Assembly (NCBI RefSeq): GCF_002954355.1
Contig: NZ_MQVV01000017.1
Location: 62,001-126,000, forward strand
Length of the DNA: 64,000 nt
Reading direction: 5' to 3'
Source of the DNA: Nonlabens tegetincola
GTDB taxonomy: Bacteria; Bacteroidota; Bacteroidia; Flavobacteriales; Flavobacteriaceae
Within the stretch, counting starts at the first letter, position 1. Every line of letters begins with the position of its first letter. Below, one piece after another: positions 5,953 through 46,188 of this stretch. Made by a program: the position numbers and the translations under genes. The notes beneath the pieces are model-generated. The model was not told the DNA's origin and did not search any database. It worked only from the letters and a program-made list of their open reading frames with translations.

Positions 5953-6188
5953 TCTCGCGAAGTTACCTAAACCGCTCTAAAATTTATTTCAAACTAAGTT
6001 TAAATCTTGTTAAGTCTTTGCCTCTATTCTTATTACATCTAGTAAACATAAGTGAAAAAACTTGACATTTATCACAAATCGCTCGATTAACTGTAGGCGT
6101 TCATCCTAATAATAATAGGCTTTATCTAAAAAAATATAGTTTTAAAACTAAAGTAAATTTTACTTTTAATTTTATCAAAAATTCCCCT

Positions 6189-6650
6189 ATGACCTACCAC
6201 GGTAAAAATGATTTTCCAGTTTATTTGTATACCATTTTACGTATTGGTTTAGGACTGTATCTTCTTTTTCATGCCCTAGATCATATTATTCATTTCAACC
6301 AGTATCTTAAAGACACAGAAGCATATTTAGGTGAAGACTCTATGAGTACCGTGCTGCAATTATTTATCCCGATTGTTCCTATGATTGAGTTTTTTATTGC
6401 CCTTATGATTACCATGGGACTTTATACTCGTAGTAGTTTAATAGGCGCGATTGCGACAGGAATTATTTTTATAATTACATTCTTCCTTTTTGAAGATTAT
6501 GACGCTGGCATTGTTCTTCTTTATTCTCTCGCGGTTAAAACGTTGTTGCTGTTCACTGTTAAATACAATCGAATATCGGCCGATTATAGAAACATCCAAA
6601 TCGCCGAAAAAGAAATGAATGAATTATTAAGGATTAAGGAACAACTTTAA
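6189..6650 (+). CDS. DoxX-like four-helix membrane protein
   Basis: A 153-residue integral membrane protein. Four hydrophobic segments are visible: ILRIGLGLYLLFHALDHI, LFIPIVPMIEFFIALMITMG, LIGAIATGIIFIITFFLF and IVLLYSLAVKTLLLFTV, with short polar loops and a charged C-terminal tail. Size, helix number and the FHALDH region near the N-terminus resemble the DoxX/MauE-like group; a function cannot be assigned. Its last 17 bases overlap the end of the convergent neighbour, an arrangement without room for a separate terminator. Confidence 0.7.
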   Translation: MTYHGKNDFPVYLYTILRIGLGLYLLFHALDHIIHFNQYLKDTEAYLGEDSMSTVLQLFIPIVPMIEFFIALMITMGLYTRSSLIGAIATGIIFIITFFLFEDYDAGIVLLYSLAVKTLLLFTVKYNRISADYRNIQIAEKEMNELLRIKEQL

Positions 6651-7341
6651 CCTGAGTTATAGGTATTTCAATACCGTAGAGACTACGCTTTCGCGAAAGC
6701 GGAAAACCACCATCTGTCATTTCCCAGTCTTGCCATGTAGCTCTTATTCCATCTAGAGGTATAATACTTACCCACATTTTAAATGCTACTGGTTGGTAAT
6801 TTTCATCCAATTCCCAGAGATAAGCATCGCCTGGCGTTGATCCTCCACTAGTATATTGTACTAATAATTGTTCTTTATCATCAACTTGTACGACAGAGCG
6901 CTTTACACCAGCATCAAATAGTTTATGAGGCGCTACCATCCAAAAGCTATCGTTATTAAAGTTTTTTTCAGCATAGGCTATAGCTTCTTCTCTTTCCTTT
7001 CCTTCTAGTTTTACTTCGTTTTTAAATGCAAAGCTACTTTGCGGATACCTGGTTTGATACGCAACCCTATAATCATCCCAATAAACATCAACTAGGTTTT
7101 GCTGTAACTTCCATCGATATCTATTAACTCCTCTAAAGGTCCAATGTAATTCACTAGCTTGAGTAAATTCTTTGTGATTAATTGCATCCAGCATTTTCAT
7201 GGCCAATTCATCGGCAGGTTTTCCTGTGGTTCCTTCTGGCACCTGTTCATTAAACGTAAGTTTCAATACTATAAAAACAATAAGTAATAATGCAACAACA
7301 CCTATAAAACCTTTCAATAAAAACTTCAATATTTTTTTCAT
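6634..7341 (-). CDS. Membrane-anchored protein of unknown function
   Basis: A 235-residue protein that I do not recognise. It has one N-terminal membrane segment (FIGVVALLLIVFIVLKL) after a Lys-rich start, so most of the chain is probably periplasmic. The soluble part is rich in Trp and Tyr (WTFRGVNRYRWKL, VDVYWDDYRVAY, WVSIIPLDGIRATWQDWEM). The iterated palindrome encodes PLSRKR near the C-terminus at 6686-6701. Divergent from the 7396 gene; a -7 box (TAATTTTG on the minus strand, 7370-7377) lies 29 bases upstream of its start. Convergent and overlapping with the DoxX-like gene. Confidence 0.7.
   Translation of the reverse strand: MKKILKFLLKGFIGVVALLLIVFIVLKLTFNEQVPEGTTGKPADELAMKMLDAINHKEFTQASELHWTFRGVNRYRWKLQQNLVDVYWDDYRVAYQTRYPQSSFAFKNEVKLEGKEREEAIAYAEKNFNNDSFWMVAPHKLFDAGVKRSVVQVDDKEQLLVQYTSGGSTPGDAYLWELDENYQPVAFKMWVSIIPLDGIRATWQDWEMTDGGFPLSRKRSLYGIEIPITQVKVVP
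6686..6701. repeat. Iterated palindrome copy 2, inside the 6634-7341 gene
   Basis: Perfect 16-bp palindrome CGCTTTCGCGAAAGCG, read as LSRKR in the host gene. Confidence 0.95.
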
Positions 7342-7369
7342 AGTACTTATTTTTTGCGCAATTTACAGG

Positions 7370-7377
7370 CAAAATTA
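7370..7377 (-). promoter_or_regulatory. -7 box TAATTTTG for the 7341 minus-strand gene
   Basis: Exact TAnnTTTG match on the minus strand, giving a predicted leader of about 23 bases before the start codon at 7341. Confidence 0.5.
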
Positions 7378-7395
7378 AACGTATATCTTTTACTT

Positions 7396-7920
7396 ATGAA
7401 ATTATTAGGAATAGGCTCTAGAATTGAACATGATGAATTAGGTTTTGGTGTGGTAACCAATGTTACTTCAAAACATTATTGGGTAAGCTTTCAAAAGTCT
7501 GGAATTGAAACTATTGATATAGATGATAATTTTGATGTCATCGAAGCCTGTGAAGATGATGTTGATACAGTTAGTTTTTATGAAGTTGAAAAATCACTAA
7601 GATATATTCTTGAACGTTACAGCGATACCAGTCAAATTGTACCGCTAGCCGATAAATTTAAAGGTGGTAAACTTATCCTAGAACCTAAAGATACTGATCT
7701 ACAATCTAAGGAAATTCCTATTGACAAATTCTGGCACAAAATTGTGATGTTAAGAGATAGACTGCGTGTTATGGAACAAAAGATTAATAGTTCAAAAGAA
7801 TTAGAGGATCAACTTAAAATAGACCTACAGCAATATATTACTCGTATTTACGGTAGTCTTACTACATTCAATGTATTGTTTGCTAGTAAAGACCAGCAAT
7901 TTAAAGGAACTGGTAAATAA
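7396..7920 (+). CDS. Conserved hypothetical protein upstream of prmC
   Basis: A 174-residue soluble protein counted from the ATG at 7396 (MKLLGIGSRIEHDELGFGVV). An in-frame ATG at 7354 would add MRNLQAKLNVYLLL, but that lies upstream of a -7-like TATCTTTT at 7384-7391, so the shorter, almost leaderless form is preferred. The first ~55 residues look like a small beta domain (GSRIEHDELGFGVVTNVTSKHYWVSF, similar in style to the tails of UvrD/PcrA helicases), followed by helices with Arg-rich WHKIVMLRDRLRVMEQKI. It ends seven bases before prmC, so the two are co-transcribed. Function unknown. Confidence 0.75.
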   Translation: MKLLGIGSRIEHDELGFGVVTNVTSKHYWVSFQKSGIETIDIDDNFDVIEACEDDVDTVSFYEVEKSLRYILERYSDTSQIVPLADKFKGGKLILEPKDTDLQSKEIPIDKFWHKIVMLRDRLRVMEQKINSSKELEDQLKIDLQQYITRIYGSLTTFNVLFASKDQQFKGTGK

Positions 7921-7927
7921 GGATACC

Positions 7928-8773
7928 ATGAACCTACAAGAGGTAAAAAACGAATTTAGAATTGCATTGTCAAATAATTATCCTGACTTTGAAATTGATT
8001 CCATTTTTAAAATATGTTGTGAGGATTTATTAGATTTTTCTCGATCTGATATTTTACTAAAATCACAAGAGCCATTGACCAAAAATCAAGAAGGCACTTT
8101 AATTACAGCGCTTGAAAAGCTAAAGCAAGATATTCCTGTTCAATATATTACTGGTGTAGCACATTTCTATGGCAGGCAGTTTAAGGTAACTGAAAACACT
8201 TTAATTCCAAGACCAGAAACTGAAGAGCTCGTACAGCTCATCGTGAGTGATGTAAATAACGAGTCTTCTTTAAAAATTATAGATATAGGCACTGGAACGG
8301 GTTGTATAGGTATAAGTCTTAAAAAAGAACTGATCTCAAGTGATGTCACCTTATTGGATGTTTCTAAGGAAGCATTATCAATCGCAAAAGAAAATGCCAC
8401 CAACTTAAAAGCTCAGGTACATTTTATAGAACAATCTATTTTAACCACTACGGATTTACCTGACAAATTTGATGTCATCGTAAGTAATCCACCCTATGTG
8501 CGGAATGTTGAGAAACAGGAAATCCATAATAATGTATTATTACATGAACCTCATCTTGCATTGTTTGTGGAAAATGAAAATCCGTTACTTTTCTATAGAA
8601 AAATCTTAGAACTTGCCCTTCATGGACTTACAGAAAAAGGTCGCGTTTATTTTGAAATTAATCAATATCTTTCAAATGAAATGAATGAACTAGCTAGTTC
8701 ACTAGGGTTTGATTCAAAGATGATCAAAGATTATAATGGGAATTGGCGTATGATGATATGCTGGAAAAAATAA
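7928..8773 (+). CDS. prmC: Release factor glutamine N5-methyltransferase
   Basis: SAM-dependent enzyme (HemK family) that methylates the glutamine in the GGQ motif of peptide-chain release factors. Start chosen at 7928 (MNLQEVKNEF), giving 281 residues, the usual length; an earlier start at 7871 would overlap the upstream gene by 50 bases. The N-terminal helical domain ends in PVQYITGVAHFYG; the Rossmann domain begins TLIPRPETEELV, with the SAM-binding GTGTGCIGI near residue 122 and the catalytic NPPY at residues 187-190. It directly follows the 7396 gene. Confidence 0.96.
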   Translation: MNLQEVKNEFRIALSNNYPDFEIDSIFKICCEDLLDFSRSDILLKSQEPLTKNQEGTLITALEKLKQDIPVQYITGVAHFYGRQFKVTENTLIPRPETEELVQLIVSDVNNESSLKIIDIGTGTGCIGISLKKELISSDVTLLDVSKEALSIAKENATNLKAQVHFIEQSILTTTDLPDKFDVIVSNPPYVRNVEKQEIHNNVLLHEPHLALFVENENPLLFYRKILELALHGLTEKGRVYFEINQYLSNEMNELASSLGFDSKMIKDYNGNWRMMICWKK

Positions 8774-13945: not shown

Positions 13946-14341
13946 GGGGTCGACTGGTTTTGACAGCGAGACTGGATTAATGGTAAGCATGTCGAGCGCT
14001 GGGAAACAGCTCGTAAATCTCATTTTTCATCTTTTTTAAACGGCGAGAATAACTACGCCCTAGCTGCATAATCTGAATCATAGTAAGATTACGCCTCGGT
14101 CTACTAGGTAGACAAGCAGGAAGTCTCTCAACAGCCTTGGTTTGCGGCGGTTGGTTATGGGACTTCGTAAAAGTAAACCTATCTACAGCAGTGCTTTGAT
14201 GCGGTAGAGAAATTTAATTGAAGCCAAGCCTAGTTTTGGTAGTTTCTGACCGGCTCTAGGACTGAAATGAATTAGAAACTAAACATGTAGAAAGCGATTG
14301 ATTCACTTGTTTGGACGGCGGTTCGAATCCGCCCGACTCCA
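13946..14341 (+). ncRNA. ssrA: Transfer-messenger RNA (tmRNA)
   Basis: Rescues ribosomes stalled on broken mRNA by acting as tRNA-Ala and then as a short template. The 5' GGGGTCG pairs with the 3' CGACTCC to form the acceptor stem; the TpsiC arm reads GGCGGTTCGAATCCGCC just before it. The resume codon and tag lie at 14042-14071 and encode GENNYALAA followed by TAA, a tag of the expected hydrophobic Ala-Ala type. CCA is not encoded. Length near 396 bases is typical. A 93-bp repeat starts exactly at the 3' end. Confidence 0.97.
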
Positions 14342-14433
14342 CAAAAAAAACGATAAACCACGACAGCGGTCGTGGTTTTTTTGTTTTGAATTAATTCAGC
14401 TAGCAAACTCAATCACTAATATTAAGATCTCAT
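14341..14433 (+). repeat. 93-bp direct repeat, left copy (includes tmRNA terminator)
   Basis: Begins at the last base of the tmRNA gene, contains the terminator hairpin AACCACGAC / GTCGTGGTT with a T-run, and runs on for 50 AT-rich bases to GATCTCAT. The right copy at 15903-15995 differs at only two positions. Confidence 0.95.
14354..14386 (+). terminator. Rho-independent terminator of ssrA
   Basis: Stem AACCACGAC / GTCGTGGTT with a short loop and T-run immediately after the tmRNA. Duplicated with the direct repeat near 15916-15948. Confidence 0.9.
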
Positions 14434-16108: not shown

Positions 16109-17203
16109 TTATTCTTCCAATAACTTGTAAGCAAATTGAGGATATCCTCTTTCATTACTAGGACTTGTAAGTGCAAGAAATTGGAGTTTGTAGTAGTTTC
16201 CATTGGCATCGTGAATAACATAGAAAATATCTTCTATAAGTGATGGTGAAGCGCTAGGACCACCGCCGTTTCTCCATGTACTACCTATACTTCTTTGGTC
16301 ATTTTCAAAATTGCTATCCACAACATCTAATAAACTAAAGTCCTCGTAGGTGATACCTTCCTCAGCTTCATCAATCATATAAGCTCGCGCACTCGACTTG
16401 ATGTTATTGGTTATAAAGTCTGCATAGGCATAGGCTCCATAACTTTGTCCACCAAAAACAGCCTCGTTTGTAAATACGGTATAGCACAAATCCCATTCTT
16501 CTTTTTGTGGCTCAACACTCACTACTGATTCTGTATTAAAACTGAAAAAAGTATAGTGGAAGGAAGGGTTTTTATTAATGGTAGTTGTTTGAAAGGTAGT
16601 ATCGTCAAGGTTAGCATATTGCAATAAATAATTCTCACCGACTTTTAAGATTCTAATCTTCTTCCAACCTCTAGCATCTCCTTTGTAGTTTGATGAACCA
16701 GAATTAGGTTGATCTACACCTACTTCATAGCCTAGATTGATTAGATAAACGTTGTTGTTTGAATCTACTGAAGAGACTGCATCTATAGCGGTTCCTGATA
16801 TATTCCCATCTGGTGCATCGATAAACTCCATATTCGCTGGATTGAAATTACCTACTTCTGCCTGTGGTTGTAATTGTTGCACTTCAGGATTGGTTGAGTT
16901 TACTGCAGTCATATCGTTAGTAGATAAGCGAGCGGCCATCATGAGGATAGACCCATTTATGATAACCCTATCTTGCATAGAACTAAATCCTAAATCCCAC
17001 GAGGTTCGGTTAACCTCGGTTGCGATATTGGTACTCAAATCAAAAAAGACCTGGTTGGGCATATTAGGACCACCTACATTTGGAGAAACTGTAGCGCCAT
17101 CTACGGTCACTACGATTGGTCCCATAGGCTCATCGTCTTCACTACAACTACCTAATAGTAGAATGCTTATAATAGTTAAAGCTGTTAATAGATTATTTTT
17201 CAT
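16109..17203 (-). CDS. HmuY-family haem-binding lipoprotein
   Basis: A 364-residue surface or outer-membrane lipoprotein; the signal peptide ends in LLLGSC, placing the lipidated Cys at residue 20. The HmuY signature is visible twice as a WDL motif: RTSWDLGFSSMQDRVIINGS near residue 68 and EWDLCYTVFTNEAV further on, with a Tyr-rich segment GAYAYADFITNN. HmuY proteins capture haem for a TonB-dependent receptor in Porphyromonas. The gene starts three bases after the receptor gene ends, so they form an operon. Haem specificity here is inferred from the family and partner. Confidence 0.85.
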   Translation of the reverse strand: MKNNLLTALTIISILLLGSCSEDDEPMGPIVVTVDGATVSPNVGGPNMPNQVFFDLSTNIATEVNRTSWDLGFSSMQDRVIINGSILMMAARLSTNDMTAVNSTNPEVQQLQPQAEVGNFNPANMEFIDAPDGNISGTAIDAVSSVDSNNNVYLINLGYEVGVDQPNSGSSNYKGDARGWKKIRILKVGENYLLQYANLDDTTFQTTTINKNPSFHYTFFSFNTESVVSVEPQKEEWDLCYTVFTNEAVFGGQSYGAYAYADFITNNIKSSARAYMIDEAEEGITYEDFSLLDVVDSNFENDQRSIGSTWRNGGGPSASPSLIEDIFYVIHDANGNYYKLQFLALTSPSNERGYPQFAYKLLEE

Positions 17204-17206
17204 GTT

Positions 17207-19342
17207 TTAAAAATTAAGTTTATATAAAAGTTTTAAATAAAAAGATCGTCCGTAACCCAGTAAAATAGAATTTGTTGCTGTGTTGTGTGCACCGCCACTA
17301 GAGGTATAATTAGTATTTACACGAGTAATATCAAATAAATTACGCGCTCCTACTGTAGCCTCTAATTGATCACTTAAAAAGGATTTTCTTATCGATGCAT
17401 CTAACCATGAATAAGCATCTGTTTCAATCTTGGAAAAAGTTGAATTACCGTCACTGTCTGAACCTGTAACCCTAAAATCTTGCTGTCTTCCGTTATAATT
17501 TACAAGTAGCGAGAAAACCGTATCCCACTTAGGGTAACGATAATTAAGACTGGCATTCAATTGGAATTGATACAAGTAGTCGTCACTAGCATTATCTTCA
17601 CTTGCTAGCTCTCTAGATATACCAAAAACAGTTGCATTTAAAGAGGTACTCCAGTTCTTTAATTTAAGTGAATTAGTATTAGTTAATCCTATAAAACGAT
17701 AACTATCTATATTCACATATCGGTACTGTAAAGGATTCGTATTTACAATGGATAGTTCAATGCGATCAGATAAATCAATGTAAGTTAGTTTTACACTATT
17801 TTCTAATCTAATCAAAGAATTATCAAACCAAGTTTTCTTTTTTAAACTTAGGAAAGTAGTTAAACCTTCTTCCGGTTTTAAATTCTCGTTACCTTGAACA
17901 TCATGGTTAGCATCAACAAAGTAATAATAAAGCTCAGTAAAATCAGGAACCCTATACGATGTGCCTACATTGGCTCTTAATTCAAACCCTTTTTCAAACA
18001 ACTGTCTTGCTGTTAATTCATAAACCGCCTTGTTATCAAATTGAGAGTTATAAATGAAACGTATACCAGGACGTACAGTTAACTTATCACTTAAACCTAT
18101 TTCAGAAGAGATGAACCCAGCAAAATCATTGATGTTTCTAGTTTTAGGATTTAAGATGTTTTCTCCTGCAGCTTCCCTATCAAAACCTTTTTGTAAAGTT
18201 ATTTCATAACCTACCTGAGCATTAAAACGATCCGTTTTGAAAAGATTCCCTAATGTACCTTTTGAATAGAAAAATTTCCCAGATTGGTTAACTTCATCTA
18301 TTTCTGCAGTTCGTTCTCGGGTAAGAATGAAATAGTTAAATTCATTCAATCTTCTTTTTTGTTCTTGATAGGATAATGAAACACTATACCTTAAACCAGA
18401 ATCAAATGTACCAGAGCCATTAAGGTGATTGAATATTCTTGAAGTTTTATAAATCCTATCAGTAGCAGATGGATTAATGGTTGAATTCTGGCTATTAAAA
18501 TTACTTCTTACTGTAGAATTAAAGAAGTTGATAGTCTCGTCAAAGTACTCAAACTTATAGAAAAACTTGTGCTTTCTATTATTATAGCCTAACAATGCGT
18601 TTGAGGTAATTTGTTCCTTAGGTAACCACTCGTAACCTCGCAAACCATCATTCTCAAAATAATCACGCCCTTTCTTATTATTAAAAAAACCAGCAAAATC
18701 GTTTCTGGTTACTCCTACACTCGCATACCAATTATCATTAATGTTGTGTGAAATTGTAGCACCTTGTACATGCCTACCTTCATCAAACCATGCGTACTCG
18801 TCGCTTACCGTTTCTTCTTGCAAGGAGAGATTAATTCTCCATTTGTTTTTATCAGATTTTTTGGTGATAATATTTAAAACACCCGATACGGCATTAGCAC
18901 CATATTGAACTCCCATAGATCCCTCAACAATTTCTATACGTTCAACATCGTCTAGATTAATTTGCGTGAGATCAATGTTGCTTCCTACACCATTATCACT
19001 CACTATGGGAACATTATCAATGAGAACATTAAAATAACGAGCATCTAATCCAAAAAAACTTACTGTACTCCTACCTGTTGAAGCACTAGGTGTTACATTA
19101 AGATTTAGATTAAAATTGAGCAAATCCGCTACATTAACAGCAGCTATTTGTTTGATTTGTTCTGCTTTAATGACTCGCACGTTGTAAACCGATTTTTTAA
19201 TTGATTGTGGATTATACTGTCCGGTCACCACAATCTCTTCTAGCGACTCTACCTCAGTTGTATCAATAACAACTGTTTGTTGTGAGTTCGCTTTCGCGAA
19301 AGCGAGAATTAAAACCAATAAAACATTAAACTTAAACTTCAT
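17207..19342 (-). CDS. TonB-dependent outer-membrane receptor (HmuR-like)
   Basis: A 711-residue TonB receptor: signal peptide (MKFKFNVLLVLILAFAKANS), a plug domain (EEIVVTGQYNPQSIKKSVYNV, LLNFNLNLNV, VERIEIVEGSMGVQYGANAVSGVLNIITKK) and a long beta-barrel ending SFYLKLLYKLNF with the terminal aromatic residue expected for BAM insertion. With the HmuY gene immediately downstream, haem or haemoprotein uptake is the most likely role. The iterated palindrome encodes AFAKA exactly in the hydrophobic core/cleavage region of the signal peptide (19289-19304). A Fur-like dyad and a -7 box precede the start. Confidence 0.93.
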   Translation of the reverse strand: MKFKFNVLLVLILAFAKANSQQTVVIDTTEVESLEEIVVTGQYNPQSIKKSVYNVRVIKAEQIKQIAAVNVADLLNFNLNLNVTPSASTGRSTVSFFGLDARYFNVLIDNVPIVSDNGVGSNIDLTQINLDDVERIEIVEGSMGVQYGANAVSGVLNIITKKSDKNKWRINLSLQEETVSDEYAWFDEGRHVQGATISHNINDNWYASVGVTRNDFAGFFNNKKGRDYFENDGLRGYEWLPKEQITSNALLGYNNRKHKFFYKFEYFDETINFFNSTVRSNFNSQNSTINPSATDRIYKTSRIFNHLNGSGTFDSGLRYSVSLSYQEQKRRLNEFNYFILTRERTAEIDEVNQSGKFFYSKGTLGNLFKTDRFNAQVGYEITLQKGFDREAAGENILNPKTRNINDFAGFISSEIGLSDKLTVRPGIRFIYNSQFDNKAVYELTARQLFEKGFELRANVGTSYRVPDFTELYYYFVDANHDVQGNENLKPEEGLTTFLSLKKKTWFDNSLIRLENSVKLTYIDLSDRIELSIVNTNPLQYRYVNIDSYRFIGLTNTNSLKLKNWSTSLNATVFGISRELASEDNASDDYLYQFQLNASLNYRYPKWDTVFSLLVNYNGRQQDFRVTGSDSDGNSTFSKIETDAYSWLDASIRKSFLSDQLEATVGARNLFDITRVNTNYTSSGGAHNTATNSILLGYGRSFYLKLLYKLNF
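19289..19304. repeat. Iterated palindrome copy 5, in the TonB-receptor signal peptide
   Basis: Perfect 16-bp palindrome CGCTTTCGCGAAAGCG, read as AFAKA just before the predicted signal-peptidase site. Confidence 0.95.
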
Positions 19343-19348
19343 TATTAA

Positions 19349-19363
19349 TTAGAATGATTCTTA
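19349..19363 (-). promoter_or_regulatory. Fur-like 7-1-7 inverted repeat at the TonB receptor start
   Basis: TTAGAAT-G-ATTCTTA, 13 of 14 arm bases symmetric, lies between the -7 box and the start codon, overlapping the predicted transcription start, a classic repressor position. The half-site TTAGAAT recurs at two other starts in this region. Binding by Fur is inferred. Confidence 0.6.
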
Positions 19364-19371
19364 ATAAGGCG

Positions 19372-19379
19372 CAAATATA
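19372..19379 (-). promoter_or_regulatory. -7 box TATATTTG of the TonB receptor-HmuY operon
   Basis: Exact TAnnTTTG match on the minus strand, about 30 bases upstream of the start codon. Confidence 0.65.
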
Positions 19380-19394
19380 TATATTTTATTTTTA

Positions 19395-19423
19395 TTTAGA
19401 ATCAATAAAAACAACTATTTTTG
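19395..19423 (+). promoter_or_regulatory. Promoter and Fur-like half-box of the DUF6607-ankyrin-reductase operon
   Basis: TTTATTTAGAAT (Fur-like half-site at 19396-19402) is followed 14 bases later by the exact -7 box TATTTTTG at 19416-19423. The same layout recurs at 24965-24994. Confidence 0.55.
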
Positions 19424-19448
19424 CAGCAACAAAAAATTTGTACTAATC

Positions 19449-20357
19449 ATGAAAAAAGTTTTAATACTTGGTGTTCTATTAATTTCTATTGCAGCAACTG
19501 CTCCTAGTAAAAGGAATGATGATGCTTATGCCATTAAACAAATGTGTGGCTGTTTTGAAGTCACTTTTAACTTTGCGGAAACCTTTAATTATTCCCAAGA
19601 TTCACTATATAAGCCCTCAAAAACCAAAGTTGATAAAGGACTAGAATGGGCTCAATTGGTTACTGATGAAAAAGACAAAATCCAAATTCAACACTTACTT
19701 CAAGTAGGAGATCCTTCAAATCCGTATATCGTGAAACATTGGAGGCAAGATTGGCTGTATGAGAATACAGATTTATATGAATACAACGCCGACAACAAAT
19801 GGGATTTCATTCAATTAGACAAAAAGGACGTAAAGGGTCAATGGACTCAAAAGGTATATCAAGTTGATGATAGTCCTAGATATGAAGGTACAGGAACCTG
19901 GGTGCATGTTGATGGTAAAAGCTATTGGGAAAATACCACTAGTGCTCCATTACCTCGCAGAGAATATACTACTCGTAGCGATTACAACGTAACTATGAGA
20001 GGTAATCGTCACGAAATTACGGATTATGGATGGGTACATGATCAAGACAACTTAAAGATCATACGTAAAGAAGGACAAGAGGATCAAGTACTAGCAGCCG
20101 AAAAAGGTTATAACACCTACAAAAGAGTAGACGATAGTCGTTGTGCAGCGGCGGCTCAATGGTGGAAAGATAATAACGACAAATGGAGTACCGTACGTTC
20201 TAAATGGGACGAAGTTTACAACCGCAATACGGATTTACGTTTACATGAAAAAGTAGATAATAAATTGCTTTTCAAGCATTTGTTTGATGAAGAAATTAAA
20301 ACTAAAGATCAAATTGATCCTATTATTGAATCATTCATAATCTCAAACCCTAAATAA
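19449..20357 (+). CDS. Exported DUF6607-like protein
   Basis: A 302-residue protein with a signal peptide (MKKVLILGVLLISIAATA) and a mature chain rich in Trp, Tyr and charged residues: KQMCGCFEVTFNFAETFNY near the start, then HWRQDWLYE, WDFIQLDKKDVKGQWTQKVYQVDDSPRYEG and DSRCAAAAQWWKDNNDKW. I believe it is the Bacteroidota family DUF6607, which has no established biochemistry. It opens a four-gene operon divergent from the HmuY/receptor pair; its stop overlaps the next ATG by one base (TAATG). A periplasmic role linked to iron or haem is inferred only from context. Confidence 0.75.
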   Translation: MKKVLILGVLLISIAATAPSKRNDDAYAIKQMCGCFEVTFNFAETFNYSQDSLYKPSKTKVDKGLEWAQLVTDEKDKIQIQHLLQVGDPSNPYIVKHWRQDWLYENTDLYEYNADNKWDFIQLDKKDVKGQWTQKVYQVDDSPRYEGTGTWVHVDGKSYWENTTSAPLPRREYTTRSDYNVTMRGNRHEITDYGWVHDQDNLKIIRKEGQEDQVLAAEKGYNTYKRVDDSRCAAAAQWWKDNNDKWSTVRSKWDEVYNRNTDLRLHEKVDNKLLFKHLFDEEIKTKDQIDPIIESFIISNPK

Positions 20358-21850
20358 TGAAAGGAATTTTAAACTTAATCCTAGGCGTTGTTGTAAGCTC
20401 GTTTTCAATAGCCCAAAACAATGTATTTTTGGAAAGATCTTACTGGAATTCAAAACCTAGTCTAGAACAAGTAAAACAAGACATCGCGGCCGGAAACGAC
20501 GCAACTCAATTGAATCAAAATGCCTTTGATGCTGTTGTATACGCGATTAACTCGGGTGCTGATAATGATGTGATCTTTCATTTATTGTCGTTAGAAGGAA
20601 ATGATGTAAACAAACTTACACACGACGGAAGAACCTATATCTTTTGGGCTGGTTATAAAGGGAATCTACAAGTCCTAGAATACTTAATGAGCAATGGAGC
20701 CAATACAGATGTGATTGACAGTCATGGTTATACCTATCTTAATTTCACAGCAAATGCTGGACAGCAAGACACGGCTTTGTATGATTTTATATTTGAAAAC
20801 GGTGGTAGCCCTAAACAAGTTAACAAACAAGGTGCCAACGCTCTTCTTCTAATTGCTCCATCTTTAAAAGATGAGAAGCTCCTATCCTACTTAATAAGCA
20901 AAGGATTTGACCTTAACGCAACCGATTATGATGGGAACAACATATTTAACTATGCTAGTAAAAAGGTTAATCCTGATTTTCTTAATCTTTTAGTTGAAAA
21001 AGGGATAGACTATAAAAGCAAAAATGAGAATGGTGGAAATGCCTTCTTATTTGCAGCAAGAGGTACACGAGGAAACTCAAATTCTCTAGAGGACTATCAA
21101 TATTTAGAACAATTGGGTATTGATCCTAATGTTGTAAATAATGACGGAGTAAATGCCCTGCATTATTTATCAGGAAGAAATAAAGATTTAAAATTATTTG
21201 ATTTTTTCATAGATAAAAATGTAGATATTAATCAAGCCAATAAAGAAGGTATCACGCCGTTCATGAATGCTGCACGTAGTAACGATAACACTGTTATAGA
21301 TTATCTATTAGACAAAATAAAAGATATTAATACAATAGATGAGAATGGATATAACGCATTAACTCATGCTGTGCGTTACAATCGCGCAAGTGTAGTTGAC
21401 TTACTTCTTAAAAACAAGGCTAACGCTCTTGTAGTAGACAAGGAAGGACAATCCATGGTTTACCATCTAATTCAAAGTTATAACAGCTCTAGACACGATG
21501 ACTTCATCAAAAAATGGAAGTTTCTTACAGATGCCGGAATTGAACTTAGTGCTCCTATTTCAAAACAAACAACCATCTGGCATGAAGCTGTTAAAAAAGA
21601 TAACTTGAAACTATTAAATTTTATTAGTATTGTTTCCAAAGAAAAGATAAACGATCTTGATAAGGATGGTATGACGGCGCTTCATCTCGCTGCCATGCAA
21701 ACTAAGAATCCTGAGTTATTAAAATTCTTAATCGATCAAGGTGCAAGTACCCAAATTACTACTGCATTTGATGAAACAGTTTATGACCTAGCTCTAGAAA
21801 ACGAGTTATTAATGAAAGAAAATGCTAATCTAGATTTTCTAAAACCCTAA
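20357..21850 (+). CDS. Exported ankyrin-repeat protein
   Basis: A 497-residue protein: signal peptide (MKGILNLILGVVVSSFSIAQ) and about twelve degenerate ankyrin repeats. Clear repeat units are DGRTYIFWAGYKGNLQVLEYLMSNGAN, GYNALTHAVRYNRASVVDLLLKNKAN and GMTALHLAAMQTKNPELLKFLIDQGAS condensed over ~33 residues each. Ankyrin stacks bind other proteins, so it may scaffold the neighbouring exported proteins or the reductase. Its coding start overlaps the previous stop and it ends seven bases before the next gene. A related ankyrin protein is sometimes found with catalases in Proteobacteria, but the partner here differs. Confidence 0.88.
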   Translation: MKGILNLILGVVVSSFSIAQNNVFLERSYWNSKPSLEQVKQDIAAGNDATQLNQNAFDAVVYAINSGADNDVIFHLLSLEGNDVNKLTHDGRTYIFWAGYKGNLQVLEYLMSNGANTDVIDSHGYTYLNFTANAGQQDTALYDFIFENGGSPKQVNKQGANALLLIAPSLKDEKLLSYLISKGFDLNATDYDGNNIFNYASKKVNPDFLNLLVEKGIDYKSKNENGGNAFLFAARGTRGNSNSLEDYQYLEQLGIDPNVVNNDGVNALHYLSGRNKDLKLFDFFIDKNVDINQANKEGITPFMNAARSNDNTVIDYLLDKIKDINTIDENGYNALTHAVRYNRASVVDLLLKNKANALVVDKEGQSMVYHLIQSYNSSRHDDFIKKWKFLTDAGIELSAPISKQTTIWHEAVKKDNLKLLNFISIVSKEKINDLDKDGMTALHLAAMQTKNPELLKFLIDQGASTQITTAFDETVYDLALENELLMKENANLDFLKP

Positions 21851-21857
21851 TTAAAAA

Positions 21858-22340
21858 ATGATGAGAATATTATACATGGCCCTTGTTGCCTTGATTTGTC
21901 TATCTTTTACTGCTTCTACCGTTTCAAAAACGTCCGTAAAATGTATGATTCAAATGAAAAATTATACTGGTGAAGGTGCCTACATAGTAGTATCTGTAAC
22001 CGATAAAGAAGGAGAATATAAAGAAACGATTTATGTTCATGGAAAGGATCCAGAATGGTATAGCGAGATTGACTCATGGTGGAAATTCTACGGTAAGCAT
22101 AGACCAGATATCGACGCTATATCTGGTGAGACTATCGCTGGCGGTGAGCGTTCCATTAGTGTGCTTGAAATACCTACACAATACATAAATTCTAATCACA
22201 AACTACGTTTTGAAACTGCTGTAGAGGATCAAGATTACAATGAGGTAGATTTGGAACTAGATTTAACTGATAGTAATCTCAAATCAAAAGTTGACGGTAC
22301 AGGTTGGATTAGATACGTGAGATTAATGCCTCAAAAATAA
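21858..22340 (+). CDS. Exported DUF2271-like protein
   Basis: A 160-residue protein with a signal peptide (MMRILYMALVALICLSFTASTVS). The mature part is a beta-rich domain with YIVVSVTDKEGEYKETIYVHGKDPEWYSEIDSWWKFYGKH split over strands, and DAISGETIAGGERSISV, the DAxSGAT-like motif of DUF2271 periplasmic proteins. DUF2271 proteins usually sit beside PepSY-domain membrane proteins and FMN-linked redox proteins, exactly as here. Function unproven; a periplasmic partner of the downstream reductase is the natural inference. Confidence 0.78.
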   Translation: MMRILYMALVALICLSFTASTVSKTSVKCMIQMKNYTGEGAYIVVSVTDKEGEYKETIYVHGKDPEWYSEIDSWWKFYGKHRPDIDAISGETIAGGERSISVLEIPTQYINSNHKLRFETAVEDQDYNEVDLELDLTDSNLKSKVDGTGWIRYVRLMPQK

Positions 22341-22344
22341 ATAA

Positions 22345-24552
22345 GTGATTACATCTATATATAGATACAGTCACCTTGTACTCGCAGCTATTTCCTCCCT
22401 TTTTTTGGTAGTAGCTGCGATTACAGGTTTAGTACTTTCAACTGAACCGATTTTTTATGACTTAAAACAACCAGATAAAATCGATTTAAGTGAAATAAGC
22501 CTAGGACAAACTATTCATAAATTACAACAAGAATACGACGAGCTTATTACACTTTCTACAACCTCGCAAGGTCTTGTACTTGCCGATGTTGTAACTAAAG
22601 AAGGTACAAGCGTTACCGGCTACATAAATCCCAAAACAGGCATGTTTCTGGGAGATGAAATAACGCGACCTAGTATTTACAATTGGTTCACAAACTTACA
22701 TAGATCCCTATTCCTTAAATCAATAGGAAGAGGTTTTATAGGTGTTTCCACCTTTTTATTAGTCTTAATAATCGTATCTGGTATATTTTTATTAGCACAG
22801 CGCCAGGGCGGATTTAGTAAATGGTTTTCCTCGATAAAGGATAAGGAATTCCATAAAAAATACCACGTAATACTTAGTCGTTGGCTTTTGATACCTATTC
22901 TTATTATTGCTATCACTGGTGTCTATCTTTCACTGGAACAGTTTGATTTGATTCCTGTTGAGAATCAATCTTTAGATTGGAGTTTATCTCCCGATGAGGA
23001 GTTACCATTACAAACAATTGAAAATCAAGACTTTTTTAAGACCACGACCCTAGATCAGGTTAAAGAAGTAAACTTTCCTTTTTCAAGTGATCCCATAGAT
23101 TATTATGAAATTTATTTAAAGGAAAAAAGTGTTCTGGTCGCACAACACACGGGTGAAGTCATCGATCAGGTAGAAAATCCTTTTACAGCACTTGTTTCTT
23201 ATTACAGTACCATTTTCCATACTGGGAGCGCATCGCCGCTGTGGTCTGTGATCTTAGGAATATCCTGTATAGGAATACTGTATTTTATTATTTCAGGATG
23301 TGTCATTTATTGGAAACGTAGGCCTAAGAAAAATTACAAGCTAGAACTTTCAAGCGCACAGGATAGTGAATATATTGTTTTAGTTGGGTCTGAAAGTGGC
23401 AGTACTTACGCTTTCGCGAAAGCGTTCACACAACAACTCTTAAGGACAGGTAAAAAAGTATCCCTGAGTGATCTTAATCATTACCAGCAATACGAGCGTG
23501 CCTTACACCTCATCATTTTTACAGCAACCTATGGTGATGGCGATGCGCCTACTAATGCTAGGAAGTTTTTTGATAGACTAGAAAAAATTGATCAACCTAG
23601 ATCATTATTTGTGTCTGTAGTAGGATTTGGTTCTTCTATCTATCCAAAATACAATGAGTTTGGAAAACAAGTTTATCATCGTCTAGTAAAAGATGAGAAT
23701 ATGAAACCATACTTGCCGTTCACTGAGGTAGACGAAGAACACCAACCGGAAGAAACTTGTAAGCAGTGGCTGCAGTTATGGCAGCAAAAATCGGGTTTTC
23801 CTATGGAACTAAAGGTTGACCAGTTTCCTAAAAGCAATATTGAGAAACAAAAATTTAAGGTAACTCATCGCAGCCCATTAAATAAGGATGAAACCTTTAT
23901 CATAAGCTTACAACCTACTAGTTATAATGATTATCAATCTGGAGACTTGTTAGAGGTTTATGCAAGTGAAAAAGCAAAGGCACGGCAGTACTCGATAGCT
24001 CGTATACAAAACAAAATAGTCTTAAGTGTTAGAAAGCACGAGCACGGACTGTGTTCCACTTATCTAGCAAACTGCCATAAAAACGATGATATCATGGCCA
24101 CAATTAAAACAAATACCAGCTTTCATTTTCCTAAAGATGCTCCAAAAATTATCATGGTAGCAAATGGTACTGGAATAGCACCTTTTCTAGGAATGCTGGA
24201 TGAAAATAAAACGAACATACCTATAGATTTATATTGGGGTGGAAAAAACATAGAGAGTCTTTCCATTTATGGAGAATATTTAGAAGATGCTCATAAAAAG
24301 CAACAAGTATCTAATTATCATATTTCATATTCTAGAGAAAATGAGGTTGTAGAATATGTACAACATAAAGTGGCTGAACACAAAGAAGAAATAACTACTG
24401 ATTTGCAACAAGGCGCAGTCATCATGATCTGCGGATCTTTATCCATGCAAAACGAAGTTCTAGACTTATTAGAATTATGGAACAAAGAGAATCCTAAGAT
24501 CCAACTAGAACAACTGTATAAAAATCAAAAAATCCTTACCGACTGTTATTAA
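22345..24552 (+). CDS. PepSY-TM / flavodoxin / ferredoxin-NADP-reductase-like fusion reductase
   Basis: A 735-residue inner-membrane reductase. Residues 1-~330 form a PepSY-associated TM region with four membrane helices (first LVLAAISSLFLVVAAITGLVL) and the conserved YRYSHLVLA, NLHRSLFL, KKYHVILSRW His sites that may bind haem. Residues ~345-490 are a flavodoxin domain (VLVGSESGST, TATYGDGDAP). The rest is an FAD/NADPH module with RQYSI, GTGIAPFLG and CGSLSMQ and the terminal DCY. It would pass electrons from NADPH through FAD and FMN to the membrane, fitting ferric or haem-iron reduction. The start codon is GTG; no ATG is available. The palindrome at 23409 encodes AFAKA inside the flavodoxin FMN loop. 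Confidence 0.88.
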   Translation: MITSIYRYSHLVLAAISSLFLVVAAITGLVLSTEPIFYDLKQPDKIDLSEISLGQTIHKLQQEYDELITLSTTSQGLVLADVVTKEGTSVTGYINPKTGMFLGDEITRPSIYNWFTNLHRSLFLKSIGRGFIGVSTFLLVLIIVSGIFLLAQRQGGFSKWFSSIKDKEFHKKYHVILSRWLLIPILIIAITGVYLSLEQFDLIPVENQSLDWSLSPDEELPLQTIENQDFFKTTTLDQVKEVNFPFSSDPIDYYEIYLKEKSVLVAQHTGEVIDQVENPFTALVSYYSTIFHTGSASPLWSVILGISCIGILYFIISGCVIYWKRRPKKNYKLELSSAQDSEYIVLVGSESGSTYAFAKAFTQQLLRTGKKVSLSDLNHYQQYERALHLIIFTATYGDGDAPTNARKFFDRLEKIDQPRSLFVSVVGFGSSIYPKYNEFGKQVYHRLVKDENMKPYLPFTEVDEEHQPEETCKQWLQLWQQKSGFPMELKVDQFPKSNIEKQKFKVTHRSPLNKDETFIISLQPTSYNDYQSGDLLEVYASEKAKARQYSIARIQNKIVLSVRKHEHGLCSTYLANCHKNDDIMATIKTNTSFHFPKDAPKIIMVANGTGIAPFLGMLDENKTNIPIDLYWGGKNIESLSIYGEYLEDAHKKQQVSNYHISYSRENEVVEYVQHKVAEHKEEITTDLQQGAVIMICGSLSMQNEVLDLLELWNKENPKIQLEQLYKNQKILTDCY
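23409..23424. repeat. Iterated palindrome copy 6, inside the PepSY-flavodoxin reductase gene
   Basis: Perfect 16-bp palindrome CGCTTTCGCGAAAGCG, read as AFAKA directly after the FMN phosphate-binding loop GSESGST. Confidence 0.95.
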
Positions 24553-24841: not shown

Positions 24842-24964
24842 AATCTTTGATTTTTATTTAAAGATATAACACTTTACAAGAAGAATATTCAATAAGTTGT
24901 TAATTACCAATAATATGCATTTAGAATAAATAAAGATAAATGAACTTTAACACTCTAATTTTAT

Positions 24965-24994
24965 TTAGAATAATTAAAAATAGATTATATTTGC
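24965..24994 (+). promoter_or_regulatory. Fur-like box plus -7 promoter of the 25034 gene
   Basis: TTAGAAT-A-ATTAAAA (24966-24980) resembles the 7-1-7 dyad at the TonB receptor, and an exact -7 box TATATTTG follows at 24987-24994. The layout copies that at 19395-19423. Confidence 0.55.
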
Positions 24995-25033: not shown

Positions 25034-25384
25034 ATGAATCACGAACTTCAATTAATTACAAAAAATCAATTTGGTGAACTTAACTATTGCAATGGTTGTG
25101 ATTGTTATTCGCTTGTTTTTTCTAATTTCATTTTTAAGTTCACTGTGGATGAGTTTGAAACATTTCAAAATTATATCAATGACATTCCCATGTCGTTTTG
25201 GAATAACTCTGAGATGATGAAAAATAAAAAACGTCGCATTCCAATTCACACTAAACAAAAGAATCTTACGCTTGTTTTTAATGGTGAAGAATTTACAAAG
25301 CTCAAGGCTTTGGTAAATGGAGTTACTAAAAAAGATGAATTCTTATCCTTATTAGATATTGATTATCCGCTTCATTTGAATTAA
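25034..25384 (+). CDS. Small conserved protein, probably iron-regulated
   Basis: A 116-residue soluble protein without signal peptide. It contains LNYCNGCDCYSLVFSNFIFKFTVDEFETFQNYI, a Cys cluster CNGCDC near residue 19 followed by a long amphipathic stretch, and a C-terminal LTLVFNGEEFTKLKALVNG. I recall a Bacteroidota family of this form (DUF6686) but cannot confirm it. The promoter carries the same Fur-like half-site as the divergent haem operons, so iron control is likely. It ends seven bases from the convergent barrel protein gene. Confidence 0.7.
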   Translation: MNHELQLITKNQFGELNYCNGCDCYSLVFSNFIFKFTVDEFETFQNYINDIPMSFWNNSEMMKNKKRRIPIHTKQKNLTLVFNGEEFTKLKALVNGVTKKDEFLSLLDIDYPLHLN

Positions 25385-27002: not shown

Positions 27003-28361
27003 ATGGATTTAGTTAGAAAGTATAACGTAGCTGGTCCTCGTTATACCAGTTACCCTACAGTTCCCTATTGGGATGATACTACTTTTGACGTTGAGTCCTG
27101 GAAGGAATCTGTTAAAGTAAGCTTTCGCGAAAGCGGAATAAATACAGGCATCTCATTATACATACACCTACCTTTTTGCGAAAGCATGTGTACTTTTTGT
27201 GGATGTAACAAAAGAATTACTAAAAATCATAAGGTCGAAACACCTTATATTGAAAGTGTTTTAAAGGAATTTGATTTGTATTTAGATTTAATGGAGCAAA
27301 AACCTAGAATCAAACAAATTCATTTGGGTGGTGGAACTCCAACATTTTTCTCACCACAGAATCTAAAACAACTTATAGACGGCATTTTCAAAAATGCATA
27401 TCGGGATGATAACGTAGAGTTCAGTTTTGAAGGACATCCTAACAATACCACATACGAACACTTAAAAGTTCTACATGATTTAGGTTTTTCTAGAGTGTGT
27501 TACGGTGTTCAAGATTACAATCTCAAGGTTCAAAAAGCTATAAATAGAGTTCAACCTTTTGAAAACGTTCAACAAGCTACTCAAATGGCTAGGGACATAG
27601 GTTATAGTAGTGCAGGACACGATATCATTTACGGTTTACCTTTTCAAACCTTAGAAGATGTAATATCGACAATTGAAAAAACGATAGAACTTAAACCAGA
27701 TCGCATTGCTTTTTATAGTTATGCACACGTGCCATGGATTAAAGGTAATGGACAACGTGGTTTTAAGGACGAGGATTTACCACATCCTACGATTAAAAGA
27801 GCGCAGTATGAAACGGGAAAACTCTTATTGACACAAGCAGGATATGTAGAGGTCGGCATGGATCATTATGCACTGCCCGATGATACTCTTGCCGCTGCTA
27901 TCCATAACGGTAAACTACATCGTAATTTCATGGGTTATAACAGTTCCAAAACAGATTTAATGATAGGTCTAGGTGTTTCCTCAATAAGTGATAGCTGGTC
28001 AGGATTTGCACAAAATTATAAAAACATAGAGGACTACAAGCAAGCAGTAGACCTAGGTATACTACCTGTTTTTAGAGGTCATATCCTTACCGAAGAAGAT
28101 ATGATTATAAGAAGGCATATTTTGAATTTAATGTGTCAATTTTCTACTAACTGGACTTCAAACTCAGATTATTTTGATGAAGTTCCAGATGTTCTTATAG
28201 CTCTTAAAGAATTGGAAGCCGACGGACTAGTTATTCTGGATAAAAACGGTGTTATTATTACTGAAAAAGGTAAACCCTTTGTTCGAAATATATGCCTACC
28301 GTTTGATTTAAGACTTAAGAGAAAAAAACCTGATACACAGTTATTTTCTATGACGGTTTAA
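27003..28361 (+). CDS. hemN: Oxygen-independent coproporphyrinogen III oxidase
   Basis: Radical-SAM enzyme that decarboxylates coproporphyrinogen III in haem synthesis without oxygen. The cluster motif CESMCTFCGC is at residues 59-68 (CxxxCxxC), preceded by YIHLPF; GGGTPTF, EGHPNN and FYGVQD-type segments and HGTLYPLPD-like HYALPDDTLAAA follow. Length 452 residues matches true HemN rather than the shorter HemW. The palindrome encodes FRES at 27121-27134, just upstream of the radical-SAM core. With the oxygen-dependent type not in this window, the CRP/FNR-like box suggests induction under low oxygen. Confidence 0.96.
   Translation: MDLVRKYNVAGPRYTSYPTVPYWDDTTFDVESWKESVKVSFRESGINTGISLYIHLPFCESMCTFCGCNKRITKNHKVETPYIESVLKEFDLYLDLMEQKPRIKQIHLGGGTPTFFSPQNLKQLIDGIFKNAYRDDNVEFSFEGHPNNTTYEHLKVLHDLGFSRVCYGVQDYNLKVQKAINRVQPFENVQQATQMARDIGYSSAGHDIIYGLPFQTLEDVISTIEKTIELKPDRIAFYSYAHVPWIKGNGQRGFKDEDLPHPTIKRAQYETGKLLLTQAGYVEVGMDHYALPDDTLAAAIHNGKLHRNFMGYNSSKTDLMIGLGVSSISDSWSGFAQNYKNIEDYKQAVDLGILPVFRGHILTEEDMIIRRHILNLMCQFSTNWTSNSDYFDEVPDVLIALKELEADGLVILDKNGVIITEKGKPFVRNICLPFDLRLKRKKPDTQLFSMTV
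27121..27134. repeat. Iterated palindrome copy 7, inside hemN
   Basis: Perfect 14-bp core GCTTTCGCGAAAGC, read as FRES (SFRESGI). Confidence 0.95.
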
Positions 28362-46078: not shown

Positions 46079-46084
46079 CACCAA

Positions 46085-46157
46085 TCGTTAGGGGTGCCGT
46101 TGTGCTGAGATTATACCCTATGAACCTGAGATGTGTAATTACAGCGGAGGAAAACGA
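46085..46157 (+). promoter_or_regulatory. TPP riboswitch (THI element)
   Basis: Carries the conserved blocks GGGGTGCC, CTGAGAT, ACCC, GAACCTGA and the closing purine-rich ACAGCGGAGGAAAACGAG; TCGTT (46085) pairs with AACGA (46153) as the P1 helix. It senses thiamine pyrophosphate and is followed by a strong terminator, so it controls the downstream operon by transcription attenuation. Confidence 0.95.
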
Positions 46158-46188
46158 GACTTGTAACTAGTAAATAACCATAAACCTA

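Follow-up and report, generated by a model that had tools for sequence, protein, structure and literature searches.

The window, which is the whole stretch of 64,000 nucleotides that was analysed (Nonlabens tegetincola, contig NZ_MQVV01000017.1, positions 62,001 to 126,000), carries six open reading frames between positions 16109 and 24552; all of them were present where an earlier note on this DNA had placed them, and their Pfam domains were confirmed. On the reverse strand are the genes for an HmuY-family lipoprotein similar to RhuA and HfpY (16109-17203; PF14064, E = 1.9e-27, 96.7 bits against a cut-off of 27; lipobox recognized by eye) and, adjacent to it, for a TonB-dependent receptor (17207-19342; PF07715 and PF00593) in the position of RhuR or HfpR. 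The forward strand carries the genes for a DUF6607 protein (19449-20357; PF20311, E = 9.9e-103), an exported protein with Pfam ankyrin repeats (20357-21850), an exported DUF2271 protein (21858-22340; PF10029, E = 2.8e-34, 118 bits against a cut-off of 27.3) and a transmembrane reductase with a GTG start codon (22345-24552), in which Pfam places PepSY_TM, Flavodoxin_1 and NAD_binding_1 in one chain, in agreement with the flavodoxin and FAD/NADPH domains reported previously. Signal peptides judged by eye to be type-I-like were seen in the DUF6607, ankyrin and DUF2271 proteins, as expected from the claim of three exported proteins. The start codons of the two divergent units are 106 bp apart (19343-19448), close to the approximately 100 bases that had been given. 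The DUF6607 and ankyrin reading frames overlap by 1 base, and the next two gaps of the right-hand unit are 7 and 4 bp; in relatives, the corresponding median gaps are 4, 6 and 11 bp (75, 85 and 86 loci, respectively), and this arrangement is thus operon-like. The GTG start of the reductase was aligned with the starts of its homologues.

The DUF6607 protein is a homologue of the haemophore RhuH of Riemerella anatipestifer, and is predicted to bind haem. Its residues 3-298 align with residues 4-297 of RhuH (PDB 8xjc; E = 4.4e-91), that is, from end to end. His97, which corresponds to the haem ligand His96 of RhuH, is kept in 96 of 96 sequences, as are four residues predicted to contact the haem propionates (R144, Y145, R171 and R184); a fifth, Q199, is kept in 92 (the roles of the residues in haem binding were taken from the account of RhuH in PMC11967795). 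According to the same account, a Fur box lies between rhuH of R. anatipestifer and the divergent rhuR-rhuA; both a fur mutation and iron limitation increase rhuH expression, and the Kd of RhuH for haem is 3.44e-11 M. The haem half of the locus is therefore an already described system. A search for DUF6607 by name returned no paper in open-licence PubMed Central (supplements excluded).

Homology to published haem uptake pairs also bears out the earlier claim that the reverse-strand operon serves haem capture and import. By E value, the best NCBIfam model for the receptor was the TonB-hemin model TIGR01785 (E = 1.5e-26), yet the score of 93 bits was below the cut-off of 317. A His-containing motif of haem receptors occurs in 17 of 71 receptors and is given no weight here. 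The sequence search for PDB relatives of the lipoprotein gave none. The neighbourhood was compared in the order sample (118 genomes, of which 20 have DUF6607, 14 have DUF2271 and 12 have both) and in 80 named loci, chosen from 548 for the highest similarity to the reductase of the window. Counted by eye, 17 of the 20 order genomes with DUF6607 have an HmuY match no more than 6 kb away from it; the exceptions are G005, G013 and G023. Among the 69 named loci with at least 4.3 kb of upstream flank, a receptor gene is present in 61, an HmuY-family gene in 61 and a divergent receptor in 54. Two kinds of receptor alternate before the same right-hand operon (60 divergent receptors; 21 of the window's kind and 39 of the other kind). 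In Nonlabens, the eight other loci with a receptor all carry the other kind, and one locus has no receptor. Between the DUF6607 and ankyrin genes of six loci (L112, L115, L123, L140, L146 and L167; about 5535-7992), a receptor-like reading frame of about 810 residues was observed, of which only that of L167 matched a TonB receptor query.

The gap between the divergent units contains two Fur-like elements. The palindrome at 19349-19363 (one mismatch) is the single match in 64 kb, with 0.13 expected; such a palindrome was also held by 13 of 100 shuffles of the window, and the element is therefore modest when judged from the window alone. At 19392-19408 lies the sole exact match of the window to a second pattern, which was written after the region had been seen; with up to one mismatch allowed, 0.05 matches were expected. 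In other genera, a sequence within two mismatches of the palindrome was found upstream of DUF6607 in 54% of 67 regions versus 3% of 315 control regions from the same named loci (kinship ignored). The p values for single regions were mixed, exceeding 0.05 in 9 of the 13 regions that belong to loci with the redox genes only. The shared Fur-like signals of the earlier note thus held up, with two elements in the gap and palindrome-like boxes enriched upstream of DUF6607. Matches to sigma-70-type promoters were no more frequent than in shuffles. Downstream of the reductase, a DUF6686 gene (25034-25384, forward strand; PF20391) has a Fur-like element of its own (24961-24977, forward strand, one mismatch); in 26 of the 80 named loci a DUF6686 gene lies 3' of the reductase, and the protein may thus be an additional, accessory component of the system. 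A Fur-family gene was noted beside the locus in some relatives within the genus (L080, 3617-4069; L087, 8143-8580).

The ankyrin, DUF2271 and reductase genes form a redox triad that is a separate cassette, occurring elsewhere with other TonB receptors or with ApbE, the flavin-attaching enzyme. In the order sample, 14 of 15 DUF2271 loci (window included) have the three genes together, in one case with a methyltransferase gene inserted; the fifteenth (G105) has a lone DUF2271 gene adjoining DUF6607. ApbE follows the reductase in 6 of the 14 triad loci (one scanned with Pfam, the rest assigned by BLAST cluster). The genome of N. tegetincola has a single ApbE gene (E = 6.1e-74), on another contig, and none in the locus. 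One member of the DUF2271 family was shown to be flavinylated, with the motif [S/T]GA[S/T] (PMC8238504). The motif in the window is SGET, which departs from the literal flavinylation motif, though the acceptor residue is retained (Thr92); of 101 DUF2271 sequences, 94 have Thr and 7 have Ser as the acceptor, and in 29 it is directly preceded by Glu. The DUF2271 protein is accordingly regarded as a candidate flavinylated electron carrier. A sequence comparison of DUF2271 with the PDB gave weak, chance-like matches only. PADLOC matches and matches to NCBIfam models of Legionella effectors obtained with the ankyrin protein were discarded as repeat matches, the latter being far below cut-off.

The membrane domain of the reductase (PF03929, 121 bits) resembles the di-haem siderophore reductase FoxB. 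It was modelled alone with 57 sequences (pLDDT 88.8, pTM 0.81); the model of the whole chain (pTM 0.42) was left out of the fold search. With the membrane model, FoxB (PDB 7abw) was the sole PDB match at E <= 0.001 (Foldseek, E = 9.7e-9), the structural comparison gave Z = 17.4 with an rmsd of 8.8 over 299 aligned residues (next-best Z = 5.5), and a profile of the reductase alignment also matched 7abw (E = 4.5e-11). His119, His174 and His292 are present in 101 of 101 reductases and His10 in 100, with a gap in the remaining one. In the profile alignment, all four pair with His residues of FoxB, although the stretch that contains the last pairing is a second, weak one. Two pairs of conserved His residues in FoxB each hold one haem (PMC13038864, PMC11334425); from the order of the helices, the window reductase would have His10 and His174 near the cytosolic face, with His119 and His292 near the periplasmic one. 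For the remainder of the chain, matches were obtained to NADPH-cytochrome P450 reductase and to sulfite reductase flavoproteins. In these flavoproteins, electrons pass from NADPH to FAD and on to FMN. The domain content supports the view that the right-hand side encodes a putative NADPH-type transmembrane electron chain.

Whether the two halves belong together was judged from their distribution, and the answer depended on the sample. In the order sample, DUF2271 and DUF6607 are close (by eye from the coordinates) in 3 of the 12 genomes with both; among these, G105 has only DUF2271 beside DUF6607, and G058 has the receptor and HmuY genes between the two. This sample first suggested that the halves are mostly apart. 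The family sample (199 genomes of Flavobacteriaceae, 198 genera) instead gave 36 of 43 genomes with both genes in which DUF2271 lies downstream of DUF6607 on the same strand within 8 kb, a count of that pair alone that includes G105; the distance is mostly about 1.6 kb, which leaves space for the ankyrin gene. Six family genomes with DUF2271 matches below the Pfam cut-off were dropped (66 matched, 60 kept). Co-occurrence of the two genes in the family sample exceeded chance (odds ratio 11.5, p = 6e-13, kinship ignored). In Nonlabens (23 genomes), both genes are found in 10 genomes and are adjacent in all 10, one genome has DUF2271 only, and 12 have neither. DUF6607 is present in 70 of the 80 named loci, a fraction biased upward by the choice of the best 80 of 548 by similarity, and is absent nearby in 10, some of which are ended by contig ends. 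On a tree of 100 reductases, reconstructed with a quick method and with near-copies that favour clustering, the haem-linked label needs 10 changes versus 20.2 for shuffles. The haem-redox linkage is thus widespread in Flavobacteriaceae, and it is neither universal nor exclusive. The conservation that the earlier note proposed to check is seen for the DUF6607-DUF2271 pair in the family and the genus, and the predominant separation that was to speak against it appears only in the wider order sample.

The earlier note knew of no described system with this gene set. For the haem half this did not hold: R. anatipestifer has the same divergent arrangement of a RhuH homologue, a receptor and an HmuY lipoprotein with a shared Fur-box promoter (PMC11967795). 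The joined cluster, on the other hand, was found in no paper: a search of open-licence PubMed Central (supplements excluded) gave no description of haem genes combined with the triad. In the window, rhuH is followed by the ankyrin, DUF2271 and reductase genes, none of which is named beside rhuH in the relevant part of the Riemerella paper. HfpR/HfpY of Flavobacterium psychrophilum, as described in PMC9331221, is the same pair of TonB receptor and HmuY-like haem-binding protein and is iron-repressed; its operon includes a DoxX-family gene, unlike the window, and iron-responsive genes of putative electron-transfer role lie within 19 kb. The Hmu operon of Porphyromonas gingivalis also has an HmuY-family lipoprotein and a TonB receptor; in contrast to that operon, the window genome is without a CobN/HmuS relative (a search with PF02514 gave no match, whereas it detected the family in 5 of 14 control genomes). 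On the redox side, the PepSY-DUF2271 flavinylation clusters (PMC8238504; Caulobacter CCNA_03155-03159, PMC12004947) combine a PepSY-like membrane protein with DUF2271, are proposed to reduce iron and, in some cases, carry an NAD-binding domain like that of the window. These clusters are often accompanied by apbE and DUF4198, whereas the window has the ankyrin protein, the haemophore and the flavodoxin domain. FoxB shares the membrane fold and the His positions with the window reductase; however, its chain of 382 residues is without the fused flavodoxin-FNR part, and it acts on ferrioxamine. Each half is thus known, and the novelty is the joining of the haem half and the redox triad.

The presence of haem-catching genes beside putative electron-export genes in many marine flavobacteria suggests that iron is freed or passed on by periplasmic reduction. 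In our view, the locus is best explained as one that acquires iron from haem under Fur control and brings its own supply of electrons; we give this explanation in full a probability of about one half. Haem that has passed the outer membrane would be held by the RhuH homologue. The reductase would take electrons from cytosolic NADPH through FAD and FMN to a pair of haems placed towards opposite faces of the membrane, and from these to the flavinylated DUF2271 protein, whose target in the periplasm would be the iron of haem or iron already released from it; a scaffold role for the ankyrin protein is a guess. The reduced iron would then enter through FeoB, which is present in the genome, or ferrous haem would be handed on. 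It is only the gene linkage that points to haem, and not to ferric iron in general, as the acceptor of the electrons. Points in favour are the RhuH homology with its kept haem ligand, the position of DUF2271 behind DUF6607 in the family and the genus, the receptor and HmuY-family genes of the named loci, the short gaps of the right-hand operon, the FoxB-like fold with its four His residues, ApbE in the genome and beside 6 of 14 triads of the order sample, FeoB together with the absence of HmuS/CobN, and the Fur-like boxes. Points against this explanation are the triads that lack a neighbouring DUF6607 gene (10 of the 80 named loci; 9 of the 12 order genomes with both genes), the SGET motif, the position of ApbE outside the locus and the finding of RhuH in vesicles in Riemerella. 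There, RhuH was detected in secreted material and vesicles of iron-limited cells and was absent from whole-cell extracts (PMC11967795), findings that do not favour a periplasmic carrier role; since the section concerned does not distinguish RhuH inside vesicles from RhuH on them, such a role would still be compatible with them. A stricter form of the explanation, in which RhuH is mainly a periplasmic haem carrier, is held only tentatively and considered rather unlikely. In this form, the flavin-driven triad would take the iron out of haem bound to RhuH in the periplasm, either by reductive release or by opening of the ring, and Fe2+ alone would reach the cytosol; if true, haem iron would be gained with neither a haem ABC importer nor a cytosolic haem oxygenase.

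It is also conceivable, though less likely than the preferred explanation, that the triad is a general reductase of ferric iron or ferric siderophores, which lies beside haem genes for shared iron control and does not have haem as its substrate. Triads without DUF6607 adjoin other TonB receptors, an orphan protein family or ApbE, and FoxB and its kin reduce ferrisiderophores, according to PMC13038864. In Riemerella under iron limitation, the data in PMC5429918 list as induced rhuH and, separately, a run of genes for a CirA-type receptor, a hypothetical protein, an ankyrin protein, a periplasmic protein and a 'nitric oxide synthase', which can be read as the triad from the names and order of the genes. 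The constant operon position of DUF2271 behind DUF6607 in 36 of 43 family genomes, however, exceeds what shared regulation would need. Import of whole haem to the cytosol by an ABC transporter, with the electron chain doing something else, for instance holding haem or periplasmic proteins in the reduced state, seems improbable: the genome has three FecCD matches over cut-off, and the only full-length one adjoins an ATPase gene and a binding-protein-like gene, but this putative transporter is on another contig. We give least credit to the idea that iron genes simply cluster and are transferred together, the neighbourhood being a by-product of this without a common pathway; although the locus is patchy (both genes in 10 of 23 genus genomes) and members of the genus fall in different parts of the reductase tree, its order, spacing and strand are alike across many genera. 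Under the preferred explanation, the conserved neighbour, which could carry electrons to the periplasm, is in many marine genera a concrete candidate for the release of haem iron after passage of the outer membrane. The Hmu chelatase gene is absent from the genome. The placement of a published haemophore beside periplasmic partners also bears on where RhuH works.

Other features of the window were recorded. The palindrome GCTTTCGCGAAAGC is highly repeated, with 14 sites between 4572 and 62833 (0.00 expected), for example at 19290 and 23410; it also lies inside the receptor and reductase genes, and occurs in all 10 genus loci and in three Dokdonia loci. A reading frame at 27003-28361, 2.5 kb downstream of the locus, was judged by eye to be HemN-like (oxygen-independent coproporphyrinogen oxidase, haem synthesis). 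A tmRNA gene is located at 13946-14342, and a match to the TPP riboswitch, barely above threshold, at 46080-46169.
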